From positions 1-43,130 of IMG/VR virus record IMGVR_UViG_3300010397_000026: a DNA stretch of 43,130 bases; one strand, 5' to 3'. The notes beneath the pieces were generated by a model. That model saw only the letters and a program-made list of their open reading frames with translations, was not told where the DNA came from and ran no database searches. Below, piece by piece: positions 7,633 through 42,898 of the stretch. How positions within the stretch are numbered: position 1 is the first letter of the stretch; each line of letters starts with the position of its first letter. This DNA comes from a virus. The position numbers and the translations under genes were made by a program.

Positions 7633-7953
7633 ATGTCAACCCCTGTAGTAGACTTTAAGCAAATTGACGATGACTTATATTGGGACAATGTGAGAGGCGA
7701 TTTTGTTTTCGCCCCATCGGACAATCAGCACATACTTGACATTTTGCGCTCGTTCCCCGGATGGTGGAAAAATTCGCCGTCAACAGGGGTGGGAATAGCA
7801 ATAAATTTAAAAGGGAAAGTAAATATTAGCAGTATAGAGAATCAGGTTAAACTGCAATTGGAAGCCGATAATTATCAAGTCAACAGGCCTTCTATAAAGC
7901 TTGATTCTAATGGCAATATGACTGTAATACCAAACGCATCACGCTTACAATGA
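7633..7953 (+). CDS. Baseplate wedge protein (gp25 / Mu gp46-like)
   Basis: A 106-aa protein with the features of gp25-like wedges: small, with VVDFKQIDDDLYWDN at the start, a segment NQHILDILRSFPGWWKNSPSTGVGI resembling the conserved region before the wedge turn, and a C-terminal strand-rich end. It is the first gene after the promoter at 7621 and overlaps the next gene by ATGA (7950-7953). It probably helps join sheath to baseplate. The family call is moderate; location in the baseplate module supports it. Confidence 0.6.
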   Translation: MSTPVVDFKQIDDDLYWDNVRGDFVFAPSDNQHILDILRSFPGWWKNSPSTGVGIAINLKGKVNISSIENQVKLQLEADNYQVNRPSIKLDSNGNMTVIPNASRLQ

Positions 7954-8258
7954 CACCATACACAATAAGGCAAGGACAAACAATTTATGATGTATGTTTA
8001 AATACATACCAATCATTAAATTATTTATTCAAGCTGCTTGTTGACAATTCAATTACAATATCCAGCATTTTAACGCCCGGTAAAACATTGTTATTTGACA
8101 AATCATTTATAAATAACAATTCTCTTTTTAACGCAACAACAAACAACAATATTTTTTATACAACAGAAACAGACGAAGGTGAAGTTTTTGGAACAGAAGA
8201 TTTTCAACAAATATTTATATCAGAAGATGAGGCAACAGAATTTATACCGGAAAATTAA
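7950..8258 (+). CDS. LysM-like tail protein (gpX-like)
   Basis: A 102-aa protein. Residues 3-48 have a LysM/tail-X layout: YTIRQGQTIYDVCLNTYQSL, a middle helix and ILTPGKTLLF at the end. The C-terminal half is low-complexity, Asn/Thr/Glu-rich. Small LysM proteins sit in baseplates and bind hub or peptidoglycan. Its 3' end overlaps the start of the next, exported protein by 32 bp. Confidence 0.6.
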   Translation: MTPYTIRQGQTIYDVCLNTYQSLNYLFKLLVDNSITISSILTPGKTLLFDKSFINNNSLFNATTNNNIFYTTETDEGEVFGTEDFQQIFISEDEATEFIPEN

Positions 8259-9579
8259 GTTATTTTCATTTTTAATATTTCTATCTGGTTGCGTATTAGC
8301 TCAAAGCAATGTGATACCGTTTTCTACATTGCCAACTTTTTCTACTTGCGATACGGCAAAGGATAGGATTGTTGGCTTACATTGGAACGGATCAAAATAT
8401 GTAAATGCGATAATGTCGCCGTCAACATTATTAGCATCTACAAAATCAAGCGGAAACGGTTCCCCTGTATTTTTTGCAACGGCAGCCACAACATCTGCAT
8501 TATCTACAACATATTCATCAGGAACATTAACTGCAACCACAAATGGCAAGATACCGCTTCAAGACGGAATAAAATTAACTATTGGCGATGTGTTACTTGT
8601 TAAAAATAATGTAGCACAATTACAAAATGGTTTGTATGTTATTTATGATACCGGTGGGCTTGGCTTTACTTATAAGATGTATCGCGATAGCTCATATAAT
8701 CAAACATCTCAAATATATCCATCACAAATAAATGTTTTAAAGGGCTCCGTGAATGGAGGGAGTTTTTTTTTACAAACAACAATTAATCCGATTATAGGGA
8801 CAGATCCGATTGTTTATATATCTATTCCTGCGCCTACAAATGCTGTTTCTTCTGTGACATTTGTTGATGTTGTAGTAAACACACCTTTAACAAATTCACC
8901 GGTATATGCTTCGGGTGCTATAACAGGATTTCCCGGACAAAATGCAACCTATACGGCAGCTACTAATGGCAGATTTCCAACAATTAGCGGAGTTCCGTCA
9001 TTTATTAATCAAAAAATATTAGTAAGAGGACAAATTGATTCAACTAAAAATGGGGATTATGTTTTAGTAAGCACAGGGTCATTCGTTTCTCCATATAAAT
9101 TGCAACGAATATCTTATACCGCATCTGCTTTTTATCCACATTTATGGGAGGTTTTACAAGGTACTGATAAAGGGAGTATTTATCAACAAAATTCAAAGTT
9201 TGTTACTGATATAGGTATTGGAGTTTCAGATTATCTTTCATTTACAAATATAAATCCTTCTGTAAAAACAACACCCTCTCTTCAAACAATAAGCTCTTCA
9301 ACAATAACACCTGATCCTAATTATAATGGCGGTTATTTAGGTTCCATATCTACAAGCATTGTAATTAATAATCCAACTGTTGCATTTTCAAATTTGCAAA
9401 GTTTTTTATTGATGTTAAAAGACAACGGTAGCGTAAGAGCGATTAGTTTTGGGACATCTTATGTCGCAGAAGCTGGTGCGCTTCCGTCATCCACCACATC
9501 AAGTAAGACGATAACACTTTATTTTATTTATAATCCTATTGACTCTAAATATCACGTTTGGAGTAGCAATGAACAATAA
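8227..9579 (+). CDS. Exported tail-fibre-like lipoprotein with two fibre repeats
   Basis: I place the start at ATG 8227 (450 aa) because the residues that follow form a signal peptide with the lipobox LSGC (residues about 18-21); an in-frame ATG at 8179 would bury it. After the signal come two copies of a phage tail-fibre repeat: one with ATTNGKIPLQDGIK...GDVLLVKNNVAQLQNGLYVIYDTG, and one with AATNGRFPTISG...KILVRGQIDSTKNGDYVLVSTG. The C-terminal 90 residues are a beta domain ending FIYN...YHVWSSNEQ, related to the two exported proteins at 42026 and 42494. Virion fibres normally have no signal peptide, so either the protein acts on the cell surface or the signal has another role. Confidence 0.75.
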   Translation: MRQQNLYRKIKLFSFLIFLSGCVLAQSNVIPFSTLPTFSTCDTAKDRIVGLHWNGSKYVNAIMSPSTLLASTKSSGNGSPVFFATAATTSALSTTYSSGTLTATTNGKIPLQDGIKLTIGDVLLVKNNVAQLQNGLYVIYDTGGLGFTYKMYRDSSYNQTSQIYPSQINVLKGSVNGGSFFLQTTINPIIGTDPIVYISIPAPTNAVSSVTFVDVVVNTPLTNSPVYASGAITGFPGQNATYTAATNGRFPTISGVPSFINQKILVRGQIDSTKNGDYVLVSTGSFVSPYKLQRISYTASAFYPHLWEVLQGTDKGSIYQQNSKFVTDIGIGVSDYLSFTNINPSVKTTPSLQTISSSTITPDPNYNGGYLGSISTSIVINNPTVAFSNLQSFLLMLKDNGSVRAISFGTSYVAEAGALPSSTTSSKTITLYFIYNPIDSKYHVWSSNEQ

Positions 9580-10328
9580 TGAAAAAGCTTAAATATATAT
9601 TAATTTTCAGTTATTCTGTTTGTATTGGACAGGTAGACAAGTATTACACCTTAATCGGTATGATGTCTAAATCGTCTACTTTGAATGACTCTCTGATGGC
9701 TGCTTATAATGCTGATGGAAACCCTTATGATTTTACCACTCACTATAACGGAACGCTAACAAACGGGGCAACCGCAGCCGGTTCACCTAAAATAGGCTCA
9801 GCCTCCTTTACCTTTGACGGAATTGACGACTATGTTGCATTGCCTGTCAATACATTTACATTTACATCTAGTTTTTCTGTATCCGCATGGTATTATGCTG
9901 TAGATGTTTACGATTGCGTTATTTTTTCTACACAAGATGGCGTTAATGGAGGGTTTAGAATAGGAGAAGGGGCGAATGGTATTGGGTGGATTCGCGTTTT
10001 CTATGGTGGTGGTTCTTTTTTTGATTTAAATTCACCTACATCAGTTATTCCCAACGCTTGGACGCATTTGGTAATAGTTCACAAAGCCGGTGTAGGTACA
10101 TACATGTATGTAAATGGAACACTTGACTGTAGTGTATTGAATGGATTAACTGTCGCATCATCAGGAGTAAACTTTCCGACCATAGGAATAGACGAATACG
10201 GGTCAGGGTCTTACGTATATCCGTTTAAGGGCAGAATAGACGCTGTTCAGGTTTGGAATAAGCCATTAACAGCAACAGAAATAACGAGTCTTTATAATTC
10301 AGGATCAGGAAAACAACCACCTTTTTAA
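9579..10328 (+). CDS. Exported LamG/concanavalin-like lectin domain protein
   Basis: A 249-aa protein. The N-terminus (MKKLKYILIFSYSVCIGQ) looks like a short signal peptide cut before Q, or possibly lipidated at C15. Residues about 40-245 are a LamG-like jelly roll: FDGIDDYVALP, FSVSAWYY, WTHLVIVHKAGVGTYMYVNGTLD and FKGRIDAVQVWNKPLTATEITSLYNSG are classical positions of this family (PF13385 type). It should bind glycans. The ATG overlaps the previous stop (TAATG). Context says tail-tip or adhesion protein, but the signal suggests export. Confidence 0.8.
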   Translation: MKKLKYILIFSYSVCIGQVDKYYTLIGMMSKSSTLNDSLMAAYNADGNPYDFTTHYNGTLTNGATAAGSPKIGSASFTFDGIDDYVALPVNTFTFTSSFSVSAWYYAVDVYDCVIFSTQDGVNGGFRIGEGANGIGWIRVFYGGGSFFDLNSPTSVIPNAWTHLVIVHKAGVGTYMYVNGTLDCSVLNGLTVASSGVNFPTIGIDEYGSGSYVYPFKGRIDAVQVWNKPLTATEITSLYNSGSGKQPPF

Positions 10329-10340
10329 TAAATAAAAAAT

Positions 10341-10760
10341 ATGAAAACAAAATTAATTTTATTCGCATTGCTATTGTCGGCAAATATTTTTGCTCAAACA
10401 ACTTATGCAATACAATCAAAAACAGCACTTACTTTTAATAAAGTAGGCGCCGTTGTAGGTACAGACACATCACATGTTGTTGGGATAATAATATCTGAAA
10501 CAGCATCCTCTAGCTATCAATCATTTCAGTTTGAATATATCTGGTACAAAAGCGATTATAGTACAGCTATTAAAAGCGGGTTCTTCACCATAAAAGGCGC
10601 TATGATAGACAGTCTTTATACATTAGTTAAACCATCATTGCCCGACCCTATAACTTCGTGGAGGGATTATAGGCAAAAAGCTGCGTATATAGGAATGATA
10701 CTGCAAGGCGCTCAAACATGGAGTGTTTCACCTAGCAATTTTGAATTAAAAGTAAGGTAG
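10341..10760 (+). CDS. Exported hypothetical protein in tail-fibre cluster
   Basis: A 139-aa protein with a textbook Bacteroidetes signal peptide (MKTKLILFALLLSANIFAQ, cleavage before Q). The mature part is beta-rich at first (SKTALTFNKVGAVVGTDTSHVVGIIISETASSSYQSFQFEYIW) and mixed later. No family recognised. It follows the lectin gene by 12 bp after an AAATAAAAAAT leader and closes the exported trio before the lysis genes. Confidence 0.75.
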   Translation: MKTKLILFALLLSANIFAQTTYAIQSKTALTFNKVGAVVGTDTSHVVGIIISETASSSYQSFQFEYIWYKSDYSTAIKSGFFTIKGAMIDSLYTLVKPSLPDPITSWRDYRQKAAYIGMILQGAQTWSVSPSNFELKVR

Positions 10761-10787: not shown

Positions 10788-11027
10788 ATGGAGATGAGCC
10801 ACGAGCCACACGGCAACGTTTTTAATTTAATTGCAACGGTTATATTAGTTGCCACGGGACATGCTTTCGATTGGTTTAAAAGCAACGATCCACTAATTGA
10901 ATTTATTACTTGGATAGGTCAAATGGGGGCTTGGGGGTCTGCTTGGGTTGTTGGCGCCGTTACTGTACTCAATCTTTTGCATAATCACGGGTGGATTAAT
11001 TTAAAAAGAAAATCAAAAAGAAAGTGA
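10788..11027 (+). CDS. Holin candidate 1 (two membrane segments)
   Basis: A 79-aa protein with two hydrophobic segments (VFNLIATVILVATGHAFDW; GAWGSAWVVGAVTVLNLL) and a strongly basic C-terminus (KRKSKRK), the usual plan of a small class II holin or antiholin. A second ATG at 10794 is an alternative start. Its stop overlaps the endolysin start (GTGA at 11024-11027), the coupling typical of lysis cassettes. Confidence 0.6.
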   Translation: MEMSHEPHGNVFNLIATVILVATGHAFDWFKSNDPLIEFITWIGQMGAWGSAWVVGAVTVLNLLHNHGWINLKRKSKRK

Positions 11028-11645: not shown

Positions 11646-11951
11646 ATGGGTAAGGTTTGGTTTACAATTGGATTAATGATATTGATTTTTTCGTGTTCGG
11701 CGAAGGCGCAAGTTAATTGCTGGGATAGCATATTTAAAGTAGCAGATAAACAGGCCTCGATAAAATACGCAGCAAAAATTAAAGAATTAACAGAGGCAAA
11801 AGATATTTTTAAGATGATTGACGAATCTCAAAAAGACGTGTTTAAGGTTCAGTTGTTGACTTATAGCGGGCTTATAGACATTTGCTTTCAATCATATATA
11901 AGCAGAAGAAAAATTTATAATTGTATTTCTAAAATAAACATTAATAAATAA
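11646..11951 (+). CDS. Exported small lipoprotein, spanin candidate
   Basis: A 101-aa protein with signal peptide MGKVWFTIGLMILIFSCSAKAQ. Cysteine 17 is in a weak lipobox (IFSC), while AKAQ offers an ordinary cleavage site. The mature part is mostly helical with a Lys/Glu-rich segment (YAAKIKELTEAKDIFKMIDESQKDVF). Small exported helical proteins between lysis genes are often spanins. There is no direct motif, so this is a context call. Confidence 0.5.
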   Translation: MGKVWFTIGLMILIFSCSAKAQVNCWDSIFKVADKQASIKYAAKIKELTEAKDIFKMIDESQKDVFKVQLLTYSGLIDICFQSYISRRKIYNCISKININK

Positions 11952-12592: not shown

Positions 12593-13450
12593 ATGGACAT
12601 ATCCAAAATAAAATTCTGGGGGCTTAAAGGTGGCGGAGTTTGCGGGCAGGCTTACATAGGCGCAGCAAAAGCGGCCACAACTTTAGGAATGTATCAACGT
12701 TTAGAAGGCGTTGCCGGTTCCAGCGCAGGAGCTATTACAGCTATGTGCATCTGTTTAAAATATACCGCAGCAGAATTATACGACATCTGGACAAAAGTAG
12801 ATTACAAATCATTTAAAGACGGTTTTAATCCAGTTTCCGCATTGACTACCTACGGTATTTATAAAGGCGAAGTTTTATTTTCCTTCATTAAAACTCAAAT
12901 CAAAAATAAAACCGGTAACGAATTAATCACATTTGGCGATTTAAAGCGTTTAGGATACCTGGACTTAGTTGTTTATGCTTGCGATCACGATACCGCCGCA
13001 TTGGTTAAATTTTCAGCAGAGTTAACCCCTAATACGATAGTTGCTGAGGCGGTGAGCGCAAGTGCGGCAATACCTGAATATTTCAGACGAAGAAAATTAA
13101 CCGCCGGGGAATATGCCGGACACCATTTTATAGATGCCGGTGTTATGTATAATTACCCAATTGACGCTTTTCCTGACAATGTTTTAGGGTTATTTCTGTA
13201 TGATGTAAAAACAAAAGCTGTTTACGACCCAATCCCGGAAAACGAACCTGTAAAAGCAATCGAAAGAACTGTTTTAATGTTGGCCTCTGCTCAAGATGTT
13301 GGAGTTTTAAACAACCCCGACATAATGAAAAAAACTATCGTTATTGATACCAAAGTAATTTCGTCTACCAATTTTGATATTACACCGCAAGAAAGCCAAC
13401 GGTTAATTACTTCCGGGGAATTAGCTTTGTTGAATTATTTTAAAAAGTGA
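12593..13450 (+). CDS. Patatin-like phospholipase
   Basis: A 285-aa protein with all patatin landmarks: oxyanion loop GGGVCG (13-18), nucleophile elbow GSSAG with Ser44 (42-46), the helix AVSASAAIP (153-161), and the catalytic Asp in DAG (181-183). It should hydrolyse phospholipid acyl chains. No signal peptide is seen. It is the last gene of the late transcript, directly after the holin and nucleotidyltransferase genes. A role in breaking the membranes at lysis is likely by context. Its end is only 8 bp from the convergent minus-strand block, with no clear terminator between. Confidence 0.9.
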   Translation: MDISKIKFWGLKGGGVCGQAYIGAAKAATTLGMYQRLEGVAGSSAGAITAMCICLKYTAAELYDIWTKVDYKSFKDGFNPVSALTTYGIYKGEVLFSFIKTQIKNKTGNELITFGDLKRLGYLDLVVYACDHDTAALVKFSAELTPNTIVAEAVSASAAIPEYFRRRKLTAGEYAGHHFIDAGVMYNYPIDAFPDNVLGLFLYDVKTKAVYDPIPENEPVKAIERTVLMLASAQDVGVLNNPDIMKKTIVIDTKVISSTNFDITPQESQRLITSGELALLNYFKK

Positions 13451-24097: not shown

Positions 24098-24241
24098 CTA
24101 ATTCTTTAAATGATTAATAAAAAACAAATTACATTCTGCTGCAAACTTTAATGAAGCAGGAACCTTTGGCGCTTGTTCAATTAGTGTTATTTTGAATAGA
24201 TCGCCTTTAACTGAGATTATTTGGGTTGTTGTGGTTGTCAT
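24098..24241 (-). CDS. 47-aa hypothetical protein
   Basis: ATG 24241 to TAG 24098. Starts MTTTTTQIISVKGDLFKITL and ends CNLFFINHLKN. ATGA overlap (24238-24241) with the Cys-Ser repeat gene makes it probably real and co-translated. Confidence 0.6.
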   Translation of the reverse strand: MTTTTTQIISVKGDLFKITLIEQAPKVPASLKFAAECNLFFINHLKN

Positions 24242-25203
24242 TGGTTCTGAGTATTAAGTTTTGTTTCTTCTTCGGCACAACGTTTTATATCAGCCATCGC
24301 AACTTCATTTGATTCAAAAAACCTTACAGGGCTTACCCGTATATCAGGGCAAGAACTGTGATATATTTGCATTGCTGCATGAAGTGTGGATGTTTTTGAT
24401 TCTAATTCCCTGCCTGCCTTTCCTGCCAATGTTACTACCCATCCAGCGCGGCAATGTGTGGTTCCGCAATAAGCGCCATTTTCGCCTATCTCTCCTGATT
24501 TATGCCATACGCCCATATCTAATGCGTTAGGTTGGGAAACGGCTTCTAAAACCTTTGTGTGAATATTTTTAATTTTAGGATATTCGTATTTTTCTGTTGA
24601 TTCAATAGGTGAAGCCTGTTTTAAACCAGAGCAATCAGAGCAACGAGAGCAACCAGAGCAACGAGAGCAACGAGAGCAACCAGAGCAATCAGAGCAATCA
24701 GAGCAACCAGAGCAACCAGAGCAATCAGAGCAATCAGAGCAACGAGAGCAACCAGAGCAACCAGAGCAACCAGAGCAACGAGAGCAACTAGAGCAACGAG
24801 AGCAACGAGAGCAACCAGAGCAATCAGAGCAATCAGAGCAACCAGAGCAATCAGAGCAACCAGAGCAATCAGAGCAACGAGAGCAATCAGAGCAACGAGA
24901 GCAACGAGAGCAACCAGAGCAATCAGAGCAACCAGAGCAACCAGAGCAATCAGAGCAACCAGAGCAACCAGAGCAACCAGAGCAATCAGAGCAATCAGAG
25001 CAACCAGAGCAATCAGAGCAACCAGAGCAACGAGAGCAACCAGAGCAATCAGAGCAATCAGAGCAATTCCAGCACCCTTCATTACTTAAATTTTCTTTTT
25101 CAAAATCTGGATTTTGGGCGGCAAAACTTTCGCTTACTCCATTTTCTTCTTTGTTTTCACGACTATAGAAATCGTTAAAGTTTTTGTAAATTTTAGTTAT
25201 CAT
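24238..25203 (-). CDS. Cys-Ser-x tandem-repeat protein with conserved C-terminal domain
   Basis: A 321-aa protein in three parts. Residues 1-46 are polar (MITKIYKNFNDFYSRENKEE...) and end CWN. Residues 47-193 are 49 perfect Cys-Ser-x tripeptides, with x only D, G, R or (once) S. Residues 194-321 are a separate domain with MGVWHKSGEIGENGAYCGTTHCRAGWVV, LHAAMQIYHSS and RFFESNEVAMADI; I have seen this C-terminal domain behind other repeat types in phage and bacterial proteins. A 49-rung cysteine ladder could make a thin beta-solenoid or a metal-binding rod. Function unknown. Confidence 0.85.
   Translation of the reverse strand: MITKIYKNFNDFYSRENKEENGVSESFAAQNPDFEKENLSNEGCWNCSDCSDCSGCSRCSGCSDCSGCSDCSDCSGCSGCSGCSDCSGCSGCSDCSGCSRCSRCSDCSRCSDCSGCSDCSGCSDCSDCSGCSRCSRCSSCSRCSGCSGCSGCSRCSDCSDCSGCSGCSDCSDCSGCSRCSRCSGCSRCSDCSGLKQASPIESTEKYEYPKIKNIHTKVLEAVSQPNALDMGVWHKSGEIGENGAYCGTTHCRAGWVVTLAGKAGRELESKTSTLHAAMQIYHSSCPDIRVSPVRFFESNEVAMADIKRCAEEETKLNTQNQ
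24625..25065 (-). repeat. 49-copy 9-bp coding tandem repeat
   Basis: Unit on the minus strand is TGC TCT NNT. Seven of nine bases never change; the variable codon is GAT, GGT, CGT or AGT, so only its first two bases vary. The order of units is irregular, with blocks such as D-D-G-R-R at units 26-30 and again at 41-45, showing past duplication. All three minus-strand frames are open through the array. Confidence 0.95.
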
Positions 25204-28172: not shown

Positions 28173-28264
28173 GTAAAATAATAAAACAGCAGCAAAGAAA
28201 AGAACGATTGCTTAAAATGCTGGTCCTTATTTGTAAAATAGAAGCCAATCTTAATAAACTATGA
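28169..28264 (+). CDS. 31-aa coupled small basic protein
   Basis: MSKIIKQQQRKERLLKMLVL, then ICKIEANLNKL. ATGA overlaps at both ends (28169 and 28261) link it to the neighbours. The last 15 codons resemble a second copy at 29162-29209 after the protease gene. Confidence 0.55.
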   Translation: MSKIIKQQQRKERLLKMLVLICKIEANLNKL

Positions 28265-29160
28265 AAAAAATAATTTTATTCGGATTTTTATTGACCGTTA
28301 CCTTAAGGGGTAACGGTCAATCTTACGCCGATCAACAAGCGCAATTAGCAATTTATAATATTGTATTTAATGGTATAGTTGGTGGGGCAAGTGAAATATT
28401 GAATAATCCTCGACACGTTAAGCTATTAAAAGCGTTTGCACACGGCTTTAGAAATGGTGCCATTGGAGGCGCTGCGATTGTTACAGGCAAATACCTAGAT
28501 GGAATTTATGCGTACCACGAAAGACTAACTAATTGGCCATCACGAATAATTACATCACTCGGAACATCTATTGTATATAATATCGGATTTTCCAATAAGT
28601 TTCTGCAATATTACAATTTTGATGCTTTTGGAATAAGTATGTTGCGCTACGATTTTATAAATAAAAAACTGTGCGCTAAAATAATGCCGGCAGGTTCTGT
28701 CGGAGTTGTAATAACGGCCATTAATTCTGACAAATTTAATTTTCGTCACACCTTACAAACTGGATTTCCATGTTTTACAACAAACACAATTATTTCAAAT
28801 CCTAATGTCGCGTTTGTTTTAGGATCCACACGTATAACCTCTGTAAATATAAATCATGTTACATTGCCGAATGGCACATTTCAAAAACAGGATGACGAAA
28901 ACATTACTCTGGCACACGAAATCGTTCATTGTAATCAATATTTGGAATACACCAATTTAAACAATATTTTTATGTCCAAAATAAAAAGCTATAAAGCCGA
29001 CAAAGGAATGTTTAAATACATTTATATTGATTTTCCTTATTCCGATATGGCTTACGAATTGAATGATTTAATTGTGGGTAAAAACGCGCCTCATTATAAA
29101 AACCTCTTTGAATTTGAAGCCGAATCCTATTCCACAAAACAAAAGGTTGACAGGAATTAA
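28261..29160 (+). CDS. Exported HEIVH metalloprotease-like protein
   Basis: A 299-aa protein. Signal peptide MKKIILFGFLLTVTLRGNGQ (cleavage near 19-20). Residues 30-110 are hydrophobic and Gly-rich. The zincin motif HEIVH is at 219-223 (ITLAHEIVHCNQYLEY), with E286/E288 in FEFEAESY as possible third ligand. It should be a periplasmic or surface metallopeptidase, or an inactive relative. Made early from the rightward operon. Codons for residues 11-20 form a 12-bp perfect inverted repeat. Confidence 0.7.
   Translation: MKKIILFGFLLTVTLRGNGQSYADQQAQLAIYNIVFNGIVGGASEILNNPRHVKLLKAFAHGFRNGAIGGAAIVTGKYLDGIYAYHERLTNWPSRIITSLGTSIVYNIGFSNKFLQYYNFDAFGISMLRYDFINKKLCAKIMPAGSVGVVITAINSDKFNFRHTLQTGFPCFTTNTIISNPNVAFVLGSTRITSVNINHVTLPNGTFQKQDDENITLAHEIVHCNQYLEYTNLNNIFMSKIKSYKADKGMFKYIYIDFPYSDMAYELNDLIVGKNAPHYKNLFEFEAESYSTKQKVDRN
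28291..28320. repeat. 12-bp perfect inverted repeat in signal-peptide codons
   Basis: TTGACCGTTACC (28291-28302), loop TTAAGG, GGTAACGGTCAA (28309-28320). Thirty nt after the ATG. In RNA it is a strong hairpin; in DNA it could be an operator. Confidence 0.9.
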
Positions 29161-37681: not shown

Positions 37682-38403
37682 GTTTTTATGATTACAATGT
37701 AAATTTTGAAACAAAACGCCTTTTGCCTCCGCCAAAAAGGAAGCCGATGCGTTTGGCGCTTATGAGCGTTCCGGGATTTGTTTTGCAATTTTATCACGAT
37801 TTATTTTTTACTGATTACGCAGAGGGGGCGGTAGGCTTCACAGACTGGACAAGCGGAGGAACATATACGTACTTGCAAAAGGTAAGATATATTGACAATG
37901 CGATTTACCAATTAAAAAACATAGTAGGAATAACGGGAATTACAACTGCGCCAGATGTAGACACAGCCAATTGGAGCAAGGTTGTTAATCTGTTTATCGG
38001 CGTAAGGGAGCGCATAAAATATACAGGCAACAAACTAATGATTGAATACGCTTTGAATAGGTGGTTTAAAACAACATTCAGACAGCCGACAACATTTGTT
38101 ACTTCGCCCGATATGTATGTACCTAAAAGCGATATTTATATTCAAAATACAAACAAATCAATCACAAATTTTTGGCTATCTAATGGCAACGGATTGAATA
38201 GTTACATGGCCAACAATAGCAAGTATCAGAATTTCTTTTTAGGAAACTCATATACATATAGCCAATACGATTTCGTTATATTTATTCCTGTAGCTGTTTA
38301 CAATGCTTTAAGCGCCGATTCAACAAAAAGAGACGGCATAATACGAGTTTTTGCCGACAAATATGTGCAATGCGATAAAACCTATAAAATACAAACATAC
38401 TAA
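37678..38403 (+). CDS. gpI-like baseplate/tail protein with inserted module
   Basis: A 241-aa protein between J-like and fibre genes, where P2 gpI lies. KRLLPPPKRKPMRLALMSVPGF at the start; a short module YAEGAVGFTDWTSGGTYTYLQKVRYID...TAPDVDTANWSKV resembles carbohydrate-binding inserts; RERIKYTGNKLMIEYALNRWF follows. Connects wedge to fibre. ATGA and TAATG overlaps at its ends. Confidence 0.6.
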   Translation: MSFYDYNVNFETKRLLPPPKRKPMRLALMSVPGFVLQFYHDLFFTDYAEGAVGFTDWTSGGTYTYLQKVRYIDNAIYQLKNIVGITGITTAPDVDTANWSKVVNLFIGVRERIKYTGNKLMIEYALNRWFKTTFRQPTTFVTSPDMYVPKSDIYIQNTNKSITNFWLSNGNGLNSYMANNSKYQNFFLGNSYTYSQYDFVIFIPVAVYNALSADSTKRDGIIRVFADKYVQCDKTYKIQTY

Positions 38404-39203
38404 TGAACACTATAGACACATTACAAATTGTTGACCCAAATGCGCAACAGCCATTCACGGGTCCATCGTTAAAATTTTTACAAGACGCATTTAAAGATGC
38501 AATAAATGGTGTTGCGGGTGGAATTGTTGGGAACTCGTATTCTCTCGGAGTGATTTATGTGTTAGCTGGTTGCCAAAGAACAGGAGCTGCAGATGGAGAC
38601 GTAAGCGGCGCAGTATCCGTAACCCAAGGGTATATTATTTATAATAAAGAGGTGTATTTTGTTCCCGCGTTTTCAACTACAAACATAGCTGGAAATACTT
38701 TGTATTCTGCACTTGCAAGCACAAGTGTTGCTCCCGACCCTGTTTTATTCAGCGATTTAAGTAGTAAAAATGTTCATTTACAACGCCAATGGAATATTTC
38801 GCAAGCTAACAGCGGAAGTAACCCTCAAAGCGGTTGGGTGTATTTATATGATTCGTGGCATTATGTAGGAACAACAGGGGAGCCGGCATTTCAAAATTCA
38901 TTTGTAAATATAAATTCAGGGACTGCCAGGTTGAGATACAGAACAGAAAAATTATCAAATTTGATGGTTAGCGGATATATAACGAATAGTGGTGGCAATT
39001 TTACCGCTGAAACCACAATATTTACATTGCCTGCCGGATATAGGCCAAATACAGAAAGAATAGTAACCGCAAGCGGAACAGATGACGCCGGAGCTTACTT
39101 TGCTTGTTTTTTACGATTTGCAACAAATGGAGACGTCTCTATTAAGCCGTACGGATCAAGTAAATCTTTTTTCTTAACCGGAATATTGATCCCATTAGAT
39201 TAA
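38403..39203 (+). CDS. Tail fibre protein without signal peptide
   Basis: A 266-aa protein. N-terminal QPFTGPSLKFLQDAFKDAINGVAGGI is a typical fibre attachment start; the middle is beta-rich with SVTQGYIIYNKEVYFVP; the end has FTLPAGYRPNTERIV and a final strand FFLTGILIPLD, as in fibre tips. It is the only fibre-like gene that lacks an export signal. Followed by an intrinsic terminator. Confidence 0.75.
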   Translation: MNTIDTLQIVDPNAQQPFTGPSLKFLQDAFKDAINGVAGGIVGNSYSLGVIYVLAGCQRTGAADGDVSGAVSVTQGYIIYNKEVYFVPAFSTTNIAGNTLYSALASTSVAPDPVLFSDLSSKNVHLQRQWNISQANSGSNPQSGWVYLYDSWHYVGTTGEPAFQNSFVNINSGTARLRYRTEKLSNLMVSGYITNSGGNFTAETTIFTLPAGYRPNTERIVTASGTDDAGAYFACFLRFATNGDVSIKPYGSSKSFFLTGILIPLD

Positions 39204-40785: not shown

Positions 40786-42006
40786 ATGAAAAAAGTAAGT
40801 TTATCGGGGTATGTAAAGGCAATTGCGATGTTAGCTATTCAGGCTACAATCTATTCGTATGCTTTGGGTTTTTTAGGTGTTAACGTTTCATTTACCGGCG
40901 TATTTGTTTCGCTTTTTGCTTTAAATATTGCAATAGGCTTTACAAAGTCAGTTTTAAAATACAAAGCAATGTCAGGGTTGTTGTATGATGACACACTTGT
41001 TATTAATGATACGTCTTATGCCGGAACAGTTGCGCCGTATTACATTATACCCGCACTTTTCAGTTTTGATTCGATCATTAAAAAAGTAGTGTATCTAAAA
41101 GATGGTATCAAAAAACAACACACCATCCCTACCATGGATTTTTCAGGGCCATTGCAACCACGCGTTGCAACTCCTACACAATCCGGCGGAAACATCACAA
41201 TTGACAAACGTCAATTGGTTCCTAAAGACACCATGGCTTTTCAATTGGTTAACCCTCGTAATTTTGAGGTTCATTGGGATGCAGAAAATTTATCACAAAC
41301 ATTATTGACCCGCCAATTGCCTGCAACAGCAGAAAATTACATTATGTTATTGCTTTTAGGGCGTTCTTTTGAGCAATTTGAAGTAATGACATGGCAAGGG
41401 TCAACACAATACGCTAATAACGTAAATGTACCTCAATTTAACCCTGATGGAAGTGTTAACCCATACTATCAATTACAATTTGTTGATGGTTTAATTAAAC
41501 GTATGATCGCTGATTCGGCTGTGTATAAAGTTGCTTCGCCGGTAGCATTGACAAGCTCAAATATTGGCGCTTCTTTGTTAAGCTTATACCAATCAGTTGC
41601 AACAAACAACCGCGCATTGCTTGCTCAGGCCAATTCTTATCAAAGAATGAAATTCTTAATGAGCTGGAATACTAAGCTTATCTATGAGGAGTATTTAACA
41701 AATCAGCCATACAAAAACAACGATACTACCGAAGCTGGTATTATGCGTTACAAAGGTTGGGAAATTGAAGTTCTTGCCGGTATGCCTGACAATACAATTG
41801 TTTTCACCGAAGCGATGGCAACACCTGAGGGTAACTTATGGGTGGGAATGAACAGCACTTTAGATGAAAACTTTATGTTGCAACGTTTTTTACCAGCATC
41901 AGAGCTATTCTTCTTCAAAATGTTAATGAAAATTGACGTTAACTATGGACGTTCTGAAAAAGTGTTTTTATACACAACTCTAACAGCAAACAGCTTTATT
42001 CAATAA
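40786..42006 (+). CDS. Major capsid protein with hydrophobic N-terminus
   Basis: A 406-aa protein after the protease/scaffold gene, with the size and layout of an HK97-fold capsid: LVPKDTMAFQLVNPRNFEVHWD, EYLTNQPYKNNDTTEAGIMRYKGWEIEVLAGMPDNTIVFTE, and a final strand MLMKIDVNYGRSEKVFLYT. Residues about 9-56 contain two very hydrophobic segments (AIAMLAIQATIYSYALGFLG; GVFVSLFALNIAIGF) instead of the usual charged delta domain. Leader AATAAATAAAAAAG. Confidence 0.8.
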   Translation: MKKVSLSGYVKAIAMLAIQATIYSYALGFLGVNVSFTGVFVSLFALNIAIGFTKSVLKYKAMSGLLYDDTLVINDTSYAGTVAPYYIIPALFSFDSIIKKVVYLKDGIKKQHTIPTMDFSGPLQPRVATPTQSGGNITIDKRQLVPKDTMAFQLVNPRNFEVHWDAENLSQTLLTRQLPATAENYIMLLLLGRSFEQFEVMTWQGSTQYANNVNVPQFNPDGSVNPYYQLQFVDGLIKRMIADSAVYKVASPVALTSSNIGASLLSLYQSVATNNRALLAQANSYQRMKFLMSWNTKLIYEEYLTNQPYKNNDTTEAGIMRYKGWEIEVLAGMPDNTIVFTEAMATPEGNLWVGMNSTLDENFMLQRFLPASELFFFKMLMKIDVNYGRSEKVFLYTTLTANSFIQ

Positions 42007-42025: not shown

Positions 42026-42475
42026 ATGAAAAAATTATTATTTGCTGCTTTGTTTGCAGTATCAACATTAACAGTATCGGCGCAACGTTTTAGTGCAACA
42101 GGGTTAAGTGGTGGAAATACCGGGGCCGACCTAAATTATTTTTCTTATACAAGAACACTGGCCAGCACGGATTCTATTCGTCCAAACGCTTTTAGATCAT
42201 ACTACACGTTTGATACTTTAAAGGCTGCAAAAACGCTTATTATAAAAACGTTTTCAGCTAAAAAGTTTGACGAAGTTTCTTTAGAATTTAAAGCAGACAC
42301 ATTAACCGCTGGGCGCGTTGTTACGTTTTCATCCGGTTCATCTGCTAATAGCTCTTTATTGTGGACCACAACTAGCGGAAACACAATAACTGTAAAGAAA
42401 CAAAAAAGCGCTATCGTTGTATTTATGTTTGACGGGACTTATTGGTGTGAAAAAAGTAGAAGTGTTCAGTATTAA
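42026..42475 (+). CDS. Exported beta-domain protein 1 (head/fibre-like)
   Basis: A 149-aa protein with signal peptide MKKLLFAALFAVSTLTVSAQ. The mature protein is beta-rich and ends with a domain (LEFKADTLTAGRVVTFSSG...AIVVFMFDGTYW) of the kind found at the tips of phage fibres. It is related to the next gene and to the end of the protein at 8227. Lies 19 bp after the capsid gene, where head decoration proteins usually sit, but a decoration protein would need no signal peptide. Confidence 0.75.
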   Translation: MKKLLFAALFAVSTLTVSAQRFSATGLSGGNTGADLNYFSYTRTLASTDSIRPNAFRSYYTFDTLKAAKTLIIKTFSAKKFDEVSLEFKADTLTAGRVVTFSSGSSANSSLLWTTTSGNTITVKKQKSAIVVFMFDGTYWCEKSRSVQY

Positions 42476-42493: not shown

Positions 42494-42898
42494 ATGAAAA
42501 AAATATTTAGCTTCTTATTTGTACTTAGTTTTTGCGTTTCATTTGCTCAAAACACTTACAGATATACAGTTGTTCCGGGTAGCGACAATACTTATGCTAT
42601 ACCTCATAAAGCAATAACATATACGGCATATTCAGCTACTTTGACGGTTACACCTCAGAACGAAGAAACTGTATTTGATTTCGCTTCTTTAACAGGAAAC
42701 CTTACTTTAAATGTAAATAAAGTAAATTCTTTTTGTGGAGATAAGATGTACTTTATTTTAAGAGCAACTACATCTACAAGAACCGTAACGTGGGGTACAA
42801 ATATAACTGGATTAGCAAGCACATTAAGTGTAGCAACGACAGCTACCAAAGTTGTTATTATGGTATTTGATGGCACCAATTGGGTTCAAGTTCAATAA
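42494..42898 (+). CDS. Exported beta-domain protein 2 (head/fibre-like)
   Basis: A 134-aa protein with signal peptide MKKIFSFLFVLSFCVSFAQ (cut before Q or after). The mature part (FDFASLTGNLTLNV...MYFILRATTSTRTVTWGTNITG...VVIMVFDGTNW) matches the tail/head-fibre beta domain. Paralogue of the upstream gene; a tandem duplication is likely. Leader TATAAAATAAACA. Confidence 0.75.
   Translation: MKKIFSFLFVLSFCVSFAQNTYRYTVVPGSDNTYAIPHKAITYTAYSATLTVTPQNEETVFDFASLTGNLTLNVNKVNSFCGDKMYFILRATTSTRTVTWGTNITGLASTLSVATTATKVVIMVFDGTNWVQVQ

Follow-up and report, generated by a model that had tools for sequence, protein, structure and literature searches.

The window, a 43,130-nt stretch of viral DNA (IMG/VR record IMGVR_UViG_3300010397_000026, positions 1 to 43,130), carries three consecutive genes with predicted export signals in its tail module, behind the baseplate genes. 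They lie directly behind a LysM-like gene that marks the same fibre slot in relatives, and occupy the slot of lotta8-1 gp046, a 'structural protein'. With two signal-bearing genes behind the capsid gene, the window total is five exported virion-type proteins by predicted signals (8227, 9579, 10341, 42026 and 42494, named by their first positions). The features are as follows, a slash marking the predicted cut.

7950..8258, + strand, LysM-like tail protein (weak LysM match), final conserved gene ahead of the fibre slot
8227..9579, + strand, signal-bearing fibre-type protein, 450 aa, with two phage virion repeats and a C-terminal beta domain
8227-8301, predicted signal peptide of the 8227 protein, 25 aa, VLA/Q, with a lipobox LSGC too
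9579..10328, + strand, signal-bearing LamG/concanavalin-type lectin protein, 249 aa (PF13385, 1.1e-25)
9579-9629, predicted signal peptide of the 9579 protein, 17 aa, CIG/Q
10341..10760, + strand, signal-bearing protein, 139 aa, family not recognised
10341-10394, predicted signal peptide of the 10341 protein, 18 aa, IFA/Q
11646..11951, + strand, signal-bearing 101-aa protein of the lysis region, spanin-like, following an M15-type peptidase at 11024
38403..39203, + strand, short protein of the ordinary tail-fibre type, lacking a signal (phrog_3285 minor tail protein, 2.6e-4)
40786..42006, + strand, major capsid protein, extended at its N-terminus by ~70 aa (40786-40995)
42026..42475, + strand, signal-bearing beta-protein of the capsid region, 149 aa, immediately following the capsid gene
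42026-42082, predicted signal peptide of the 42026 protein, VSA/Q
42494..42898, + strand, signal-bearing protein, 134 aa, second member of the 42026 protein family
42494-42547, predicted signal peptide of the 42494 protein, SFA/Q

Signals were called with our own rule-based caller, not SignalP. Bacteroidota signal-peptidase-I substrates have a positively charged start, a hydrophobic core, small residues at -3/-1 and Gln at +1 (the Q-rule; PMC5837995), and by this caller all five window proteins carry Q-rule signals ending in A/Q or G/Q. The fibre-slot N-termini are MRQQNLYRKIKLFSFLIFLSGCVLA/QSN (8227, with an alternative GTG start at 8179), MKKLKYILIFSYSVCIG/QVD (9579) and MKTKLILFALLLSANIFA/QTT (10341). 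An earlier note on this DNA had reported export signals on these three genes and placed them in the fibre region; all three were called with Q at +1, and their module is confirmed by the slot behind the LysM-like gene and by virion-type domains in 8227 and 9579. The earlier note missed the two signal-bearing proteins at 42026-42475 and 42494-42898.

The two repeats that it had described in 8227, at approximately residues 104-209 and 265-360, have their matches in head-decoration and virion families of phages (phrog_17264, 4.2e-10; phrog_2647, head decoration, 6.1e-9); the protein also matches phrog_24595 (virion structural). Its C-terminal domain is common to a signal-less fibre (L168:6710-7690, E 8e-16). 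A search of viral contigs with the protein's own peptides returned zero direct relatives, and its matches among phages extend only over the shared repeats and this C-terminal domain. The LamG assignment of 9579 is borne out by PF13385, and this protein matches phrog_8510 (virion structural, 7.7e-9). Family and relative searches with 10341 found no relatives and no virion-type domain match, and here alone the signal may be a meaningless start or a host leftover. The signal-less 38403 belongs to a baseplate J - I - fibre cassette (36857, 37678, 38403), with homologues in Peternella ('tail fiber protein') and lotta8-1 ('structural protein'). The 11646 protein is an ordinary exported phage protein, and serves as a contrast to the fibre proteins.

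The LSGC lipobox noted earlier in 8227 is real as a motif ([LVI][ASTVI][GAS]C where the hydrophobic core ends). It lies four residues before A/Q, and L014/L237 has LISC. Since nearly all other fibre-slot signals lack Cys and have A/Q, cleavage by signal peptidase I is likelier than a lipoprotein, though 8227 itself may be either. A lipoprotein reading for all three fibre-slot proteins was rejected, as the lipobox occurs only in 8227 (and L014/L237).

Signals across relatives and protein classes

In the fibre slot of related phages, 29 of 66 distinct ORFs carry a signal, against 0.50 expected from shuffled N-termini, as do 23 of 50 distinct sequences of the capsid-region beta-protein. Among the remaining structural proteins there are 3 in 807 (2/730 other structural proteins and 1/77 capsid proteins). 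In held-out contigs, 43 signals fell in the fibre slot and 15 in the capsid region, compared with 3/530 elsewhere among structural proteins, and the A/Q cut site is strictly kept in relatives. Signals in related phages are confined to the outermost, last-added virion proteins, and the signal-plus-fibre fusions that the earlier note proposed to seek there are present. With the shuffles and the signal-poor structural classes as controls, chance or mis-called starts are ruled out at the family level. The trait is not universal, because signal-bearing fibres are absent from Winoviridae, Hankyphage and gut relatives; the Cellulophaga phi18:1 fibres examined also lack signals, and the Hankyphage paper reports none on phage DGR targets.

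Meaningless hydrophobic starts, or leftovers of captured host genes, are therefore a very improbable source of the pattern. Phage fibre genes do recombine with host adhesin genes, but the excess over shuffled expectation is replicated in held-out contigs, the signals survive deep divergence, and signal-less kin show no enrichment of the sequon considered below.

Fibre and capsid-region families each occur both with and without a signal, and the mature N-terminus of the signal-bearing proteins falls where signal-less homologues have their start Met (alignment A4). Residue 2 of the signal-less L168:7693-7950 aligns to residue 21 of 9579 (E 2e-13), and a further case is given by L287 (QVKISDMPTFTGNP) and L293 (MSKKISELPEYTGVP). 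As signal-less homologues start where the mature protein starts, the signal appears to be an added front piece. Attachment domains accompany it: a phrog_677 baseplate wedge/fibre connector lies directly behind the signal in L162:16524 (residues 20-60, 1.8e-10), and the signal-bearing L144:17824 has a K1-lyase C-terminal domain (1.7e-22).

In the capsid region, L012, L013 and L014 have a protein with the same signal at the place of 42026, and in L118, L142 and L149 the gene sits between the protease and capsid genes. The signal is kept across the deeply divergent tree of this family, and signal-bearing members occupy the position of a signal-less version instead of accompanying it. The predicted model is all-beta (pLDDT 87.9). 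Gene position and small beta fold make 42026 and 42494 candidate capsid decoration proteins; the fold matches are phage tail-fibre proteins and one capsid spike (E 7.8e-3), so that they could equally well serve as fibres or spikes. In tblastn searches against phages, 42026, 42494 and the L100 protein gave zero matches.

Glycosylation sequons in signal-bearing proteins

The periplasmic O-glycosylation sequon of Bacteroidota is D(S/T)(A/I/L/M/T/V) (PMC6120980). It is enriched 2.6-3.3x in the signal-bearing sets (fibres and capsid-region protein, two independent samples), compared with 0.93-1.1x in clean signal-less sets and about 1.0x for the reversed motif in fibres, and the third-position preference for A, I, L, V, T (M) re-emerges from the data. 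The first hold-out 'no signal' set gave 2.0x and on inspection contained missed signal and membrane proteins; after their removal it gave 0.93x and the removed group alone 3.1x, a cleaning made after the 2.0x result had been seen and to be weighed accordingly. Signal-bearing Cellulophaga fibres show no enrichment (22 observed versus 33.7 expected). The five window proteins hold 7 sequons in total: DTA42 and DST271 in 8227, DSL37 in 9579, DSL90 in 10341, and DSI49, DTL63 and DTL91 in 42026, with zero in 42494. This enrichment at the level of the clade suggests periplasmic passage of the signal-bearing proteins, and since sequons occur all along the mature fibres, whole fibres and not just their front ends would see the periplasm.

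The capsid protein itself behaves differently. Its added N-terminal stretch has two to three hydrophobic segments and no A/Q site, the Hankyphage and BS-TP1 capsid proteins align to the window's capsid protein from residue 71 onward, and 25 other distinct relatives have capsid proteins with at least two hydrophobic segments ahead of the normal start. Such segments would suit a scheme in which signals anchor the proteins in the inner membrane while assembly proceeds there and are cut late, with the capsid hydrophobic hairpin acting likewise; signal peptides on capsid proteins have been noted in Porphyromonas phages (PMC10367356). We regard this as decidedly improbable. Capsid proteins with hydrophobic N-termini lack A/Q and show no sequon enrichment (0.93x), and so differ in kind from the exported set, and sequons run throughout the mature fibres. 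'Assembled on the membrane' was, of the three options offered in the earlier note, the one nearest to our preferred reading; a route of export, modification in the periplasm and late attachment is the better fit.

Probable virion location and a proposed route by export

Nine signal-bearing Cellulophaga phage proteins are recorded as virion proteins by MS/MS (phi10:1 gp091-094, KC821618; phi19:1 gp101-104, KC821607; phiSM gp08, KC821616), in GenBank notes on virion preparations that may hold contaminating envelope fragments. The same pectate-lyase spike occurs on a signal-less adaptor in phi17:2 and phi14:2, and is MS/MS-recorded in the latter. The MS/MS records and the sequon enrichment stem from different phage groups. 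The premise of the earlier note, that virion proteins should not be exported, does not survive these records or the existence of families with and without a signal. We consider export well supported by the predicted signals, and membership of virion protein families supported by sequence matches; location in the virion is likely, the MS/MS records coming only from Cellulophaga phages, which belong to other families.

Exported proteins could instead act on the cell envelope, as adhesins or by masking or blocking the phage's own receptor, for superinfection exclusion or to keep progeny off debris, with fibre domains recruited to bind surface sugars. A receptor-binding domain (LamG) joined to an export signal suits a decoy directly, the periplasmic passage suggested by sequons is explained equally well, the window retains its ordinary signal-less fibre 38403, and exported Q-rule phage proteins have been proposed to modify the host outer membrane (PMC10367356). 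Nevertheless, virion records exist for nine signal-bearing relatives, the proteins retain baseplate-connector and spike-chaperone domains, and the capsid-region proteins have no obvious envelope task and take the place of signal-less ones. The decoy, receptor-masking and adhesin roles raised earlier are thus not favoured, and we judge them unlikely.

Under dual use, a share of each protein would fold in the cytoplasm too early for Sec to take it and enter virions in the usual way, and the exported remainder would act on the envelope. This would account for MS/MS records together with export marks, and fast-folding beta trimers can escape Sec. It seems improbable, as inspection of the window proteins by eye showed no internal start for a second form, a form left in the cytoplasm would retain the hydrophobic front piece, and A/Q is strictly kept.

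In the textbook view, tailed phages assemble in the cytoplasm until lysis. Our preferred reading, to which we assign a probability of about 0.5, is that outer appendages undergo export and cleavage, probably receive O-glycans in the periplasm, and become attached to virions at lysis or later. The window's five would be beta-proteins of fibre and capsid-surface type that acquired a Sec signal peptide. Made late, appendage proteins would pass the inner membrane unfolded, be cut before Gln by signal peptidase I, have this Gln cyclised by the host, and fold in the periplasm, where many of those of the clade would probably be O-glycosylated by the host general system. Once lysis has broken the inner membrane, they would encounter completed heads and tails and bind to them externally, a step that decoration proteins and fibres of other phages can perform in vitro. 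The attachment route, its timing, place and benefit, and glycosylation of the exported fibres, which the sequons point to, are the parts that we infer.

A group of Bacteroidota viruses appears to equip the outermost proteins of its particles, tail fibres and a small capsid-region protein, with secretion signals. More tentatively, and at somewhat less than even odds, Bacteroidota tailed phages would complete their particles from outside with Sec-exported, cut, cyclised and O-glycosylated appendages, kept separate from the heads and tails in the cytoplasm and loaded at lysis, so that the virion carries sugars made by the host and its receptor-binding parts are never present in the cytoplasm as folded proteins. 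If outer virion proteins are exported as a conserved trait, part of assembly takes place in or through the periplasm, and disulphide, pyroglutamate and glycan chemistry is open to them. This would offer an explanation for how host-type glycans could come to be carried by phages of sugar-coated gut and freshwater bacteria, with immune and receptor consequences. Signals mentioned only in passing by earlier authors become a testable question, and a Q-rule signal with sequons offers a practical mark for Bacteroidota phage receptor-binding proteins missed by sequence similarity.

Comparison with known systems

We know of no description of virion proteins passing via the periplasm in tailed phages. 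The earlier note knew of no such system, and we found no published explanation for signals on these fibres in the literature, nor any text discussing signals of MS-detected Cellulophaga phage proteins. Nixviridae phages of Porphyromonas gingivalis have Q-rule proteins, and their major capsid proteins also have signals (PMC10367356); the Q-rule genes are of unknown function there, with no tie to fibres, decoration proteins or glycosylation. In Ingeline and Nekkels, signal peptides are also stated for proteins with lyase domains (Bartlau et al. 2021, PMC8776804), a single unexplained remark in a paper whose discussion places the lyases on the tail. The structural and lyase genes of the Ingeline region checked here all have SP/Q.

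Cellulophaga phi10:1, phi19:1 and phiSM resemble the window in having fibre-region proteins with Q-rule signals, in the first two as runs of consecutive genes, and add MS/MS virion records; they differ in phage family, in their pectate-lyase spikes and in lacking sequon enrichment. Streptococcal phage SM1 PblA/PblB are phage tail proteins that act on the cell surface without signal peptides, and phage T5 Llp is a phage lipoprotein that blocks the phage's own receptor and is not a virion protein. The coat proteins of filamentous phages (M13 pIII and pVIII) are virion proteins made with Sec signals, but filamentous phages assemble in the membrane, whereas tailed phages fill their heads in the cytoplasm.

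Export signals in the window and its relatives

The 43,130-base record is a Bacteroidota phage with a contractile tail, and its main features are as follows.

Features of the window, in order
One end: tail sheath, tube, tape measure, baseplate hub, gp25-like gene, LysM-like gene
8227-9579, 9579-10328 (LamG) and 10341-10760: signal-bearing genes after the LysM-like gene, followed by lysis genes
12593-13450: patatin-like phospholipase (PF01734, 3.7e-24), behind the lysis genes
24238-25203, minus strand: 321 aa, long C-S-[D/G/R] triplet repeat (CSDCSGCSRCSGC...)
28261-29160: 299-aa signal-bearing protein (cut between GNG and Q), ahead of the terminase genes
Opposite end: terminase, portal, baseplate J-I-fibre cassette, ClpP-type protease, capsid protein
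42026-42475 and 42494-42898: signal-bearing genes directly behind the capsid gene

The ORF positions given in the earlier note for the three fibre-region genes are exact. It had read an export signal on each, and a rule-based caller written for this analysis found one in all three, always with Gln at +1, the residue by which Bacteroidota signal-peptidase-I substrates are recognisable (PMC5837995). The same scan added the two genes behind the capsid gene, absent from the earlier list; the signal observation is confirmed and extended.

Capsid and sheath alignments yielded relatives at ~160 viral loci and at 57 loci in Bacteroidota genomes. In the closest (capsid protein 64% identical), a homologue of 42026 holds the same position with its own signal, cut between Ala and Gln. 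Throughout the set, signals concentrate at two sites: a ~140-aa protein adjoining the capsid gene (the capsid-region protein) and the fibre slot, meaning the genes that come next after the LysM-like gene. Counting distinct sequences, signals cut before Gln (Q-cut) occur in 23 of 50 capsid-region proteins (0.20 expected from shuffled N-termini) and in 29 of 66 fibre-slot ORFs (0.50 expected), compared with 2/730 other structural proteins and 1/77 capsid proteins. The Fisher value for this clustering, 1.6e-48, overstates independence because the sequences are related. Fresh held-out contigs, found via the baseplate hub, gave 43 fibre-slot and 15 capsid-region signals versus 3/530. The predicted signals are shown by this distribution to be confined to the outermost proteins.

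Sequons as a mark of periplasmic passage

Exported Bacteroidota proteins are O-glycosylated at D(S/T)(A/I/L/M/T/V), the glycan being flipped to the periplasm before transfer (PMC6120980). We chose this sequon as a test of periplasmic passage because it is usable only there. Signal-bearing fibres hold 194 sequons against 66.7 ± 7.8 expected from shuffling, and signal-less fibre-slot ORFs 46 against 42.9; for capsid-region proteins the values are 38 against 14.6 with a signal and 19 against 19.3 without. The reversed motif and E/N substitutes showed no excess in the same test. With redundancy removed, the ratio for signal-bearing fibres is 2.6; only D stands out at the first position, while at the third A, I, L, V and T lead and D, E, F, P, Q and W never occur. 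Signal-less fibres show no such preference by position. Ratios at genome loci were 2.0x for signal-bearing proteins and 1.00x for others. Among held-out contigs, new non-redundant signal-bearing fibres reached 3.2x, and capsid-region proteins 3.3x with versus 1.1x without a signal; signal-less fibre-slot ORFs gave 2.0x at first and 0.93x once those with a hydrophobic N-terminus (overlooked signals, spanins and membrane proteins) had been removed, a step taken after the first result. Capsid proteins with hydrophobic N-termini gave 0.93x. Two results limit this evidence: the window's five signal-bearing fibre-region and capsid-region proteins have just 7 sites in total, and Cellulophaga fibres show no sequon excess. 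Judged by these motifs, the signal-bearing proteins show marks of periplasmic life.

Spanin-like and other proteins of the lysis region whose N-terminus is hydrophobic or lipoprotein-type (L249:16752, L290:15201, L263:15321, L268:15466 and others, as locus:position in related phages) are also sequon-rich (group 3.1x); D(S/T)x may therefore be a general mark of periplasmic proteins in Bacteroidota phages.

Signal-bearing and signal-less forms of virion-type proteins

An AlphaFold2 model of the capsid-region family is all-beta (123 residues, mean pLDDT 87.9). In PDB its first eight hits (best E 3.2e-3) comprise phage tailspikes, one capsid spike and one baseplate interface, and it has 105 matches among viral models at E <= 1e-3, the named ones often tail-fibre or minor tail proteins; from these matches, the predicted fold is that of a virion appendage, on head or on tail. 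The family has both signal-bearing and signal-less members: the signal-less start MATTSRF..DNTGR corresponds to QSTTPRF..DNTGR after the cut, and in the alignment the two starts lie one or two residues apart at most. Signal-bearing members group together in the tree (fewest changes 2 versus a shuffled mean of ~18), where the signal persists over deep divergence with its letters varying. A third branch (L118, L142, L149), its gene lying between the protease and capsid genes, has a signal too.

At locus L168, a signal-less fibre sharing the 8227 C-terminal domain precedes a signal-less LamG gene, residue 2 of whose product aligns with residue 21 of 9579. The fibre slots of L287 (signal followed by QVKISDMPTFTGNPSG) and L293 (MSKKISELPEYTGVPQPTG) hold the same adaptor, judged by eye. 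L162:16524 has a baseplate-connector domain (phrog_677, 1.8e-10) immediately after its signal; L144:17824 carries a K1-lyase C-terminal domain (1.7e-22). In a split fibre (L237:6071-8942 and L014:20190-21033), a short adaptor gene lacking a signal (MYIKDNKISELDLSNPLTG...) overlaps the signal-bearing fibre gene, whose product (813 aa in L237) has collagen-like repeats. These alignments show the predicted signals as additions to otherwise ordinary virion proteins.

GenBank notes of Cellulophaga phages list virion proteins detected by MS/MS. All four of phi10:1 gp091, gp092, gp093 and gp094 are so recorded and start with Q-cut signals; phi19:1 gp101-gp103 (Q-cut) and gp104 (signal without Q) are likewise recorded, as is phiSM gp08, with a signal. 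The checked portal, capsid, tape measure and tube proteins of phi10:1, phi19:1 and phiSM have no signals. In phi17:2 and in phi14:2, counterparts 44-50% identical to the pectate-lyase spike of phi10:1 gp093 sit on adaptors that lack a signal; the one in phi14:2 is MS/MS-recorded. Membrane contamination of virion preparations may underlie these notes; taken as they stand, the outside records show that proteins related to the signal-bearing set occur in virions. The earlier interpretation stands in part: the signals are real, and its premise that virion proteins are not exported fails on MS/MS-recorded relatives with Q-cut signals.

Of 129 distinct capsid proteins, 26 have an N-terminal extension of ~35-75 aa in which two or three hydrophobic segments precede the normal start; the window's own (40786-40995, where the capsid gene begins) is one of them, beside 25 others. 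The extension spans several unrelated lineages, including lotta8-1 and FPSV-S1, and Peternella has one segment. Extended capsid proteins have no Ala-Gln cut site and no sequon excess. The extension looks removable and may serve as a membrane anchor while the prohead assembles.

A proposed route and known systems

Export of the signal-bearing fibre and capsid-region proteins is very likely, and they probably reside in the virion. Exported appendages would attach to particles once the inner membrane opens; to the whole chain, export and then attachment, we give a probability of about 0.5. With T4, P22, lambda and phage L, it is possible to add fibres and decoration proteins to particles in vitro. 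To our knowledge, late addition is impossible for tube, sheath, portal and tape measure, and these proteins lack signals. The signal-bearing set coincides with the proteins addable last, from outside, a telling match. That glycosylated virions are completed outside-in is a tentative idea, which we consider somewhat doubtful. Possible gains are appendages folded and modified outside the cytoplasm, a particle carrying host-type glycans, and receptor-binding parts kept from assembly until release.

A literature search, with subscription journals mostly outside its reach, returned two reports of such signals and no further one. Bartlau et al. saw that the lyase proteins of two Cellulophaga phages bear signal peptides (PMC8776804). 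For Porphyromonas phages, capsid proteins with signal peptides are described, as are uncharacterised proteins obeying the Q rule, and the authors proposed that the host outer membrane is altered (PMC10367356). Neither paper ties signals to fibres plus capsid-surface proteins, virion MS records or glycosylation; here, virion appendages would take the Sec route.
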